Shown here in pieces: positions 22,111-23,642 of a stretch of DNA of 32,460 bases. Source of the stretch: an uncultured beta proteobacterium. Lineage in GTDB: Bacteria > Pseudomonadota > Gammaproteobacteria > Burkholderiales > Casimicrobiaceae. The stretch's first letter is position 1; each line of letters begins with the position of its first letter. The notes beneath the pieces are model-generated. The model was not told the DNA's origin. It searched no databases and saw only the letters and a list, made by a program, of their open reading frames with translations. The position numbers and the translations under genes were made by a program. The stretch spans positions 1-32,460 of the forward strand of contig CAIWHR010000244.1 of assembly GCA_903912485.1 (NCBI GenBank), given 5' to 3'.

Positions 22111-22140
22111 TGAAACAACCTGAAACATCCTGTCACCGAA
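22111..22140 (+). promoter_or_regulatory. Tandem 10-bp activator element, copy A (glycine-rich protein gene)
   Basis: Three consecutive 10-base units read TGAAACAACC, then TGAAACATCC, then TGTCACCGAA. The pattern GAAAC-N5-GAAAC-N5-GTCAC has the 10-bp half-site period of CpxR-like OmpR-family regulators. The element ends 61 bases before the start codon at 22202. A closely matching copy precedes the DUF2202 gene at 23613-23642. Confidence 0.65.
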
Positions 22141-22187
22141 GCGCAATCGCGGTGCAGTCGTCGCTGCGGAGAATGTCACAGGAAACG

Positions 22188-22205
22188 ATGCATCCCCTGC
22201 CATGA
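22188..22205 (+). CDS. Five-codon mini-ORF overlapping the start of the glycine-rich protein gene
   Basis: ATG 22188 is preceded by ACAGGAAAC, the best ribosome-binding site in the leader. It opens a frame for MHPLP that stops at TGA 22203-22205. That stop overlaps the ATG of the next gene (22202) in an ATGA arrangement. The glycine-rich gene has no ribosome-binding site of its own at a normal distance, so translation may be coupled through this mini-ORF. Whether the peptide matters is unknown. Confidence 0.35.
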   Translation: MHPLP

Positions 22206-22726
22206 ACTCAGCCTTAGCACGGTCGCTGCTGCTCCCGGTCTTCCTCCTCGCGTTCTCCGGCGAGGCGGCGGCGGACACTGCCGCGGTGCCGGCGACCGCC
22301 TCAGACAACCCGAAAGCCGCGGTGGGCGCGCCAGCCGCGCCCATCAATGGAGACATGGCTCCCGAGCGGGAACGCGACCGCAAGGAGAGACCGGTCCCGG
22401 CGAAGGGGGCGGCCACCGAGCCCAATCCGCGCGTGCCCCACGATGGGCGACTCCGGTTCGGCGTCGGTTTCGAAGCGCGCCATGCCTCCGGTTCGGGCGG
22501 ACGCGTGGGCAGCAGTGCCGATTCCTCGGGAAGTGGCGCCGGCGGCAATGGCGTCGCCGGCGCCGCGGCCGGTGGTGGAGGTGCCGGTGGTGGAGGTGGA
22601 GGTGCCGGTGCCGGTGGCAGCGGCGGTGGCAGCGGCGGTGGCAGCGGCGGTGGCAGCGGCGGTGGCAGCGGCGGTGGCAGCGGCGGTGGTGGCGGTGGCG
22701 GTGGCGGTGGCGGTGGTGGCCGCTAA
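22202..22726 (+). CDS. Secreted glycine-rich protein with GGSG repeats, unknown function
   Basis: A 174-aa protein that I cannot place in a family. It has a signal peptide (MNSALARSLLLPVFLLAFSGEAAA) and a charged, Pro/Glu/Arg-rich middle (about 50-80). A short segment RLRFGVGFEARH comes next, and from about residue 96 the tail is almost only Gly with Ala and Ser. The tail includes six GGSG repeats and ends in a polyglycine run and Arg. Glycine-rich tails of this kind occur in structural, surface or matrix proteins, but no function is claimed. It is preceded by the tandem 10-bp element shared with the DUF2202 gene, so both may answer to the OmpR-type regulator encoded at 23724. A hairpin after the stop probably ends transcription. 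The exact repeat number may vary between strains. Confidence 0.7.
   Translation: MNSALARSLLLPVFLLAFSGEAAADTAAVPATASDNPKAAVGAPAAPINGDMAPERERDRKERPVPAKGAATEPNPRVPHDGRLRFGVGFEARHASGSGGRVGSSADSSGSGAGGNGVAGAAAGGGGAGGGGGGAGAGGSGGGSGGGSGGGSGGGSGGGSGGGGGGGGGGGGGR
22613..22684 (+). repeat. Six perfect tandem copies of a 12-bp repeat inside the glycine-rich gene
   Basis: The unit GGTGGCAGCGGC is repeated six times without error and encodes GGSG each time. It is followed by 6-bp GGTGGC-type repeats to about 22720. The array keeps the reading frame whatever the copy number, so slippage would change protein length without breaking the gene. Confidence 0.9.
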
Positions 22727-22750
22727 CCGCGCCGTCGAGCCAACCGCGCC

Positions 22751-22781
22751 CTCGCCAAGGGATCGGTCATCCCGTGGCGAG
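22751..22781. terminator. Strong hairpin between the convergent glycine-rich and DUF2202 genes
   Basis: CTCGCCAAGGGAT (22751-22763) pairs with ATCCCGTGGCGAG (22769-22781) around a CGGTC loop, with one mismatch in 13 pairs. It lies 24 bases after one stop and 63 bases from the other, so it may terminate both transcripts. There is no T-run. Confidence 0.6.
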
Positions 22782-22844
22782 CCGCGCGGCGACCAGGCGC
22801 CCGAATGCAGGGCTCCTGGCTTGCTGCACGATCCCCGTCGCAGA

Positions 22845-23498
22845 TTACTTCCCGCAGCGCTCCACTGGCGCCGCCAGAATCCCGTCGACCGTGGCTTGCG
22901 GCAAGACCTGGGCGGCGTATTTCTGGCCCGTCAGCGTCTCGAGCGTTGTCGCGAAGCTGCGCAGGTGGTTGCGCGAGCCGCACATGAGACTCTCGTAGAC
23001 CGCATCGATGTCGGGCTTGGCCGCGTCGCCGATCGCCGCAGTACCATCCTCGATGTCGACCTCCTCGATCAACGCACCAACCTTCACGCCAGACGCAACG
23101 TCCCGGCTGCCCGCAGCGAGCAGAACATCGTACAGCGACTGCAGTTCGTCGCTGGAGAACTCGCCCGCCAGGTTGCCAGCCGCAGGATCGGGGAGCCGGT
23201 ACAGGGTCAGCAGGCGCAGCATGGCGTCCGAGTGGTTCTGCTCCGCCACCGCAATGTTCGCGAACAAGGCCAGCTCATGCTGTTCGTGCATCTTCAGGTA
23301 GATGTCGCGCGCCAGCTTCTCCTCCTCGCGCATGAACACCATGCCGGCCGCCTCCGCTGGCGTCGGCGCGACGTATCGCTGGGATGCCGCAGCGGGCACA
23401 GCCGCGTGTGGCGATGCTCCGACGGGGGCAGCAAGAAGAAGGGGGCTCGCCAACAGAGTGATGACGATGGCGGCTGCGGTGGCTTTGGGTCTGAACAT
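22845..23498 (-). CDS. Exported DUF2202 ferritin-like protein
   Basis: A 217-aa protein with a signal peptide (KATAAAIVITLLASPLLLAAPVGA) and a helical DUF2202 domain. The hallmark is MREEEKLARDIYLKM, followed by FANIAVAEQNHSDAMLRLL. Glu and His residues there are spaced as in ferritin-like four-helix bundles that can bind a metal pair. The family has no established biochemical role. The frame is open to 23657, but I start at ATG 23498 because AAAGGAGTC lies just upstream and the signal peptide follows directly. The tandem 10-bp element at 23613-23642 is about 115 bases upstream of the start. The gene is divergent from the OmpR-type two-component pair and convergent with the glycine-rich protein gene. 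Confidence 0.85.
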   Translation of the reverse strand: MFRPKATAAAIVITLLASPLLLAAPVGASPHAAVPAAASQRYVAPTPAEAAGMVFMREEEKLARDIYLKMHEQHELALFANIAVAEQNHSDAMLRLLTLYRLPDPAAGNLAGEFSSDELQSLYDVLLAAGSRDVASGVKVGALIEEVDIEDGTAAIGDAAKPDIDAVYESLMCGSRNHLRSFATTLETLTGQKYAAQVLPQATVDGILAAPVERCGK

Positions 23499-23612
23499 GG
23501 CTGACTCCTTTCGTGGGTCGGAATTCCGCGATCGCAATCTCGATCGATCGTGGCGCAGAACGCGGGTCGTTGCATGCAATGATCGGCGGCGCCTGTTGCC
23601 CGCTGATTGCCC

Positions 23613-23642
23613 TCCGGTGACAGGTTGTTTCAGCGGGTTTCG
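23613..23642 (-). promoter_or_regulatory. Tandem 10-bp activator element, copy B (DUF2202 gene / two-component system)
   Basis: Read on the minus strand, the three units are CGAAACCCGC, TGAAACAACC and TGTCACCGGA. The last two units and the 8 bases that follow match copy A (22121-22148) at 25 of 28 positions, ending in a shared GCAATC. It lies between the DUF2202 gene (minus) and the response regulator gene (plus, start 23724), so it could control either or both. Confidence 0.65.

Follow-up and report, generated by a model that had tools for sequence, protein, structure and literature searches.

Two closely similar boxes, each made of three 10-bp units, precede two genes beside an OmpR-type regulator gene in the window (the whole stretch of 32,460 nucleotides that was analysed; Table 1). 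Very likely, both are operators of the EnvZ/OmpR-like system encoded at 23724-25801, through which this system would activate the promoters of an operon that has been split in two. That this represents a known kind of control, an OmpR-type operator pair, in a hitherto undescribed system is well supported by sequence comparison.

Table 1 Features of the locus, with positions in the window
Feature	Position	Strand	Remarks
Box copy A	22111..22140	+	Three 10-bp units TGAAACAACC TGAAACATCC TGTCACCGAA; half-sites GAAAC, GAAAC, GTCAC
Predicted -10 hexamer GAGAAT, promoter behind copy A	22169..22174	+	Offset +48
Small exported Gly-rich protein	22202..22726	+	RFGVGFEAR motif; (F/Y)GxG(F/Y)E(A/S)R family, profile E 1.3e-5
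DUF2202 protein, N-terminal signal-like segment	22845..23498	-	Pfam PF09968, E 4.7e-46
Predicted -10 hexamer GATCAT, promoter behind copy B	23579..23584	-	Offset +48, same as copy A
Box copy B	23613..23642	-	Units CGAAACCCGC TGAAACAACC TGTCACCGGA; regulator-DUF2202 intergenic; directed away from regulator
OmpR-type response regulator, receiver + Trans_reg_C	23724..24440	+	Pfam PF00072, PF00486; presumed binder of both boxes
EnvZ-like sensor histidine kinase, HAMP + HisKA + HATPase_c	24437..25801	+	Pfam

The two domains of the regulator, PF00072 and PF00486, place it among the OmpR-family response regulators, and its gene is overlapped by the kinase gene by 4 bp. The best-scoring NCBIfam models were OmpR for the regulator (NF007005; 270.6 bits, under the curated cut-off of 331) and EnvZ for the kinase (NF007004; 206 bits, under the cut-off of 415). 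In the phylogenetic tree, the regulator was sister to that of locus L162 (support 100/98), within a clade of 49 rows (99/94) separate from the clade holding the Serratia and Shewanella regulators. The pair thus shares domain architecture and best family models with E. coli OmpR/EnvZ, the osmoregulatory system of the ompF/ompC operators, but stays below the curated cut-offs and in a clade apart from canonical OmpR; judged by these comparisons, it is OmpR/EnvZ-like and not OmpR proper. A previous sequence-only reading of the window had taken CpxR as its point of comparison. CpxR is likewise an OmpR-family regulator with direct-repeat sites, but the choice was wrong, as the CpxR model gave the window's regulator only 153 bits and the half-site is of the OmpR form. 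Just downstream of the kinase lies a further response regulator gene, with an AraC-type output (receiver + HTH_18; 26035-26874, plus strand).

The same reading had described two three-unit copies built on TGAAAC, TGAAAC and TGTCAC, and both the sequence and a genome-wide pattern search bear out their number, place and likeness. Up to the third hexamer, copy A reads TGAAACAACC TGAAACATCC TGTCAC (22111-22136, plus) and copy B CGAAACCCGC TGAAACAACC TGTCAC (23642-23617, minus), so that the described units hold for copy A, whereas the first unit of copy B begins with CGAAAC, one base off. From the middle unit through GCAATC the copies are identical at 25 of 28 positions; the runner-up match to copy A inside the window reached 17/28, and in a control for this identity 6 of 1500 random 28-mers from the window had another match of at least 25. 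The motif scan that had been proposed as a check, run over the whole 5.27 Mb genome, found TGAAACN4TGAAACN4TGTCAC with at most one mismatch at copies A and B only, and one further site when up to three mismatches were allowed. Copy B has the same position and direction as the boxes of loci L162, L022, L200, L018, L017 and L181.

Published OmpR sites carry a central GXXAC or GXXXC with the AC about 10 nt off (PMC5559549), and the site that OmpR binds consists of two 10-bp half-sites in tandem (PMC7380067). Both boxes have such GXXAC/GXXXC half-sites ~10 bp apart, and they resemble the E. coli operators also in that several head-to-tail half-sites precede a weak promoter. Across related loci of the order, the half-site form and spacing recur. 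In 13 loci (250 bp upstream, read away from the regulator, window left out, expectation from shuffling), GNNAC pairs exactly 10 bp apart numbered 21 against 1.1 expected, as compared to 0 to 4 pairs at any other spacing from 6 to 16. Such a pair was present at 12 of the 13 loci (other spacings, 0-4 loci), four of which hold three or more GNNAC units in a row. At 50 kinase-related loci, we counted 51 pairs facing away from the regulator (3.6 expected; other spacings mostly near background) and 16 facing it (2.4 expected). All these counts carry the reservation that the loci are related and not independent of one another. The unit sequences themselves drift between lineages, from GGAAAC/TGATAC/TGGCTC at the sister locus L162 to GTAAC/GTTAC at L163-L166 and L172, so that the 10-bp spacing of GNNAC is the only general feature. 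Searching 60 relatives for the exact motif mostly returned scattered two-mismatch matches at control level, with only L011/L197 adjoining a relevant regulator. Absence of the element from relatives that retain the genes had been named as grounds for refutation: in the four relatives with DUF2202 beside the regulator, a 10-bp GNNAC pair is present in every case, while the exact TGAAAC/TGAAAC/TGTCAC is not kept.

Elsewhere in the same genome, a four-unit GNNAC/GAAAC repeat with 10-bp period lies upstream of a DASS-type transporter gene (C604:8607-8641, L210:3108-3142). It may be one more target of an OmpR-family regulator and is not significant alone; with ~0.2 matches expected by chance according to our estimate, we do not claim it as a third box.

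A feature absent from the sequence-only reading is a −10-like hexamer at equal distance in copies A and B. When nine boxes were aligned on the conserved unit, with offsets counted from the start of the middle unit, NANNAT occurred at +48 in eight of the nine promoters (GAGAAT, GATCAT, GAGGAT, GAAGAT, CAAGAT, GATGAT, GATCAT and CAAGAT) and in three at most at any other offset. The sole exception was the regulator-side copy of L022, which has not faced the target operon since an insertion. As these nine promoters had been picked by eye, loci unused in defining the offset served as a held-out set, the hexamer being required only to have A as its second and T as its sixth base. Indeed, it stood at +48 in 25 of the 30 held-out loci, whereas the next best offset had it in 12 and the average offset in 2.3; at other OmpR-like loci, the numbers were 6/28 facing away from and 1/44 facing toward the regulator. 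We read this hexamer as the −10 element of the predicted promoters. Their −35 region is poor, which would fit an activator-dependent promoter, and a scan for sigma-70 consensus promoters found nothing, a result that is expected of such a promoter and gives no positive support. The promoter layout is common across families: many of the regulator's relatives (at L163-L166, L168, L172 and L184-L195) are preceded by a conserved GTAACACANTGTTACA-type box with GGAAAY, after which an A2/T6 hexamer stands at +48.

Since OmpR-like boxes also occur upstream of canonical OmpR relatives, the motif alone cannot name its OmpR-family binder. The boxes might accordingly be bound mainly by another regulator of this family, for example that of the second OmpR-like pair in the genome (G000:C557), the adjacent pair controlling something else. 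OmpR-family half-sites resemble one another, and 10-bp GNNAC pairs precede other OmpR-like regulators too. However, the box tracks the clade and the position of the regulator at 23724, and the +48 layout, so frequent in the regulator's clade, is weak outside it. Moreover, among the 63 genomes of the family no other had DUF2202 or a full-length close relative of the kinase, and this joint absence argues that the regulator and its targets are gained and lost together. We thus consider another binder unlikely. Given the same absence, the locus is accessory in the family and was perhaps acquired. The contig itself very probably belongs to the genome's family: contamination is unlikely, as one methyltransferase of the window shares up to 78% identity with same-family members, more than with any other sampled family.

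Control of both genes by the adjacent regulator, as had been suggested, is supported by three comparisons: the recurrence of GNNAC pairs, the held-out +48 result and the DUF2202 genes that stand without the regulator. No box was found at these stand-alone loci (L202-L207). The box therefore goes with the regulator and its target genes rather than with DUF2202 in itself. The accompanying proposal that the regulator also controls itself is only plausible: copy B lies 82 bp from the regulator start and may also act on this gene, in keeping with the moderate enrichment of GNNAC pairs facing the regulator. AgrR of Cupriavidus metallidurans is an OmpR-family regulator that combines autoregulation with target activation, but its box is a 6-4-6 inverted repeat (PMC7380067), whereas the units in the window are direct repeats.

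The genes behind the boxes (22202-22726, plus; 22845-23498, minus) are convergent, as claimed before. The Gly-rich protein had no match in Pfam or NCBIfam; with a (F/Y)GxG(F/Y)E(A/S)R profile built with the window excluded, it was the sole significant match among 304 ORFs of the window. Upstream, a five-codon ORF (22188-22205, plus; ATG CAT CCC CTG CCA TGA) preceded by AGGA overlaps the Gly-rich start with its stop (ATGA), possibly reflecting translational coupling or else chance. The second protein scored 157 bits against a gathering cut-off of 22 bits for PF09968 and is thus a DUF2202 member. Its invariant residues (E59, E60, E86, H89, E145 and H178) form a Glu/His pattern that we take to be typical of metal-binding helical bundles, and the fold may be ferritin-like; the predicted structure is all-helical, at low confidence (pLDDT 57) and too weak to build on. 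It is homologous to MJ0754, the structure of which has been solved (PDB 3q4o, E 1.3e-34), and the literature searched held no paper on either DUF2202 or MJ0754.

Only 9 of 399 genomes in the order carry DUF2202, that of the window among them, which makes it rare; in four of the nine (window, L162, L172 and L181) it adjoins the regulator-kinase pair divergently, L022 of Rhodoferax being a fifth case of DUF2202 with such a pair. In L162, L181 and L022, an exported Gly-rich protein with the (F/Y)GxG(F/Y)E(A/S)R motif precedes DUF2202 on the same strand; in L172, this place is taken by an exported Gly-rich protein with no clear motif. The tandem is therefore found in four DUF2202-bearing relatives, the nearest one included. 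The motif protein or a close motif variant is also divergent from the regulator at L017, L018, L163-L166, L188, L193 and L200, where DUF2202 was not found near the regulator. Taken together with the profile match, the tandem indicates that the two window genes, earlier called unrelated, are ancestral operon partners and that the window represents a derived, split state. Copy B would then occupy the ancestral box position between regulator and DUF2202, where in relatives a single promoter of this type would drive one operon, with the gene for a small exported Gly-rich protein first and that for DUF2202 or some other exported protein next. In the split state, DUF2202 follows copy B, and the Gly-rich gene would have moved or been inverted to face it, with copy A of its own.

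Such a history raises the alternative that copy A is a by-product of recent rearrangement, a duplicated promoter segment without function at the Gly-rich gene. Indeed, compared with L162 the operon has clearly undergone rearrangement, and the likeness of the copies extends over ~38 bp, past the units themselves (TGAAACAACCTGAAACATCCTGTCACCGAAGCGCAATC at 22111-22148, plus; CGAAACCCGCTGAAACAACCTGTCACCGGAGGGCAATC at 23642-23605, minus). Yet in copy A all three units have survived the divergence of the flanks, as has the −10 at +48, and the start codon ~65 bp downstream is that of the gene that also follows the box in relatives, so that we give this explanation little credence. In L022, regulator and operon are parted by inserted genes, with a box at either end, 33 of 34 bases alike; these direct-repeat boxes (L022:3518-3543 and L022:4934-4959, minus) flank ~1.4 kb that contains the inserted genes, one of them glutamine-amidotransferase-like. 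As natural experiments, the split operon with a box per half and the Rhodoferax insertion with a box per end suggest that a target gene retains the box wherever it goes. Finally, short motifs do recur, but chance similarity of A and B is exceedingly improbable given their 25/28 identity, their being the only two genome sites at up to one mismatch, a periodicity conserved across families and the held-out +48 result.

For the adjacent EnvZ/OmpR-like pair as the controlling system, we propose that the kinase phosphorylates the regulator, which would then bind head-to-tail on the 10-bp GNNAC half-sites and, as an activator rather than a repressor, recruit polymerase to the −10 fixed 48 bp past the start of the middle unit, where the −35 is poor. 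The output of the Gly-rich protein and DUF2202 would thereby be coordinated. Unlike those of E. coli OmpR/EnvZ, these putative targets are not porins, and they adjoin the regulator. More broadly, and with evenly balanced confidence, many families of the order may share an undescribed, dedicated system of EnvZ/OmpR paralogues, in which one promoter layout (10-bp GNNAC plus −10 at +48) controls small exported (F/Y)GxG(F/Y)E(A/S)R proteins as well as, in certain lineages, the exported ferritin-like DUF2202 as a local envelope or metal-stress response. Already the locus as analysed offers an OmpR/EnvZ-like clade a regulon and a promoter code that can be put to the test, and it ties two unstudied families of exported proteins to a defined signal-transduction pair.

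Two further genes of the window lie outside this locus. The minus strand encodes a pyridine nucleotide-disulphide oxidoreductase related to type III sulfide quinone reductase, under the model's cut-off (19911-21185), and a decaheme c-type cytochrome of the OmcA/MtrC family (29759-32452; TIGR03507, 478.5 bits), which suggests extracellular electron transfer in this organism.
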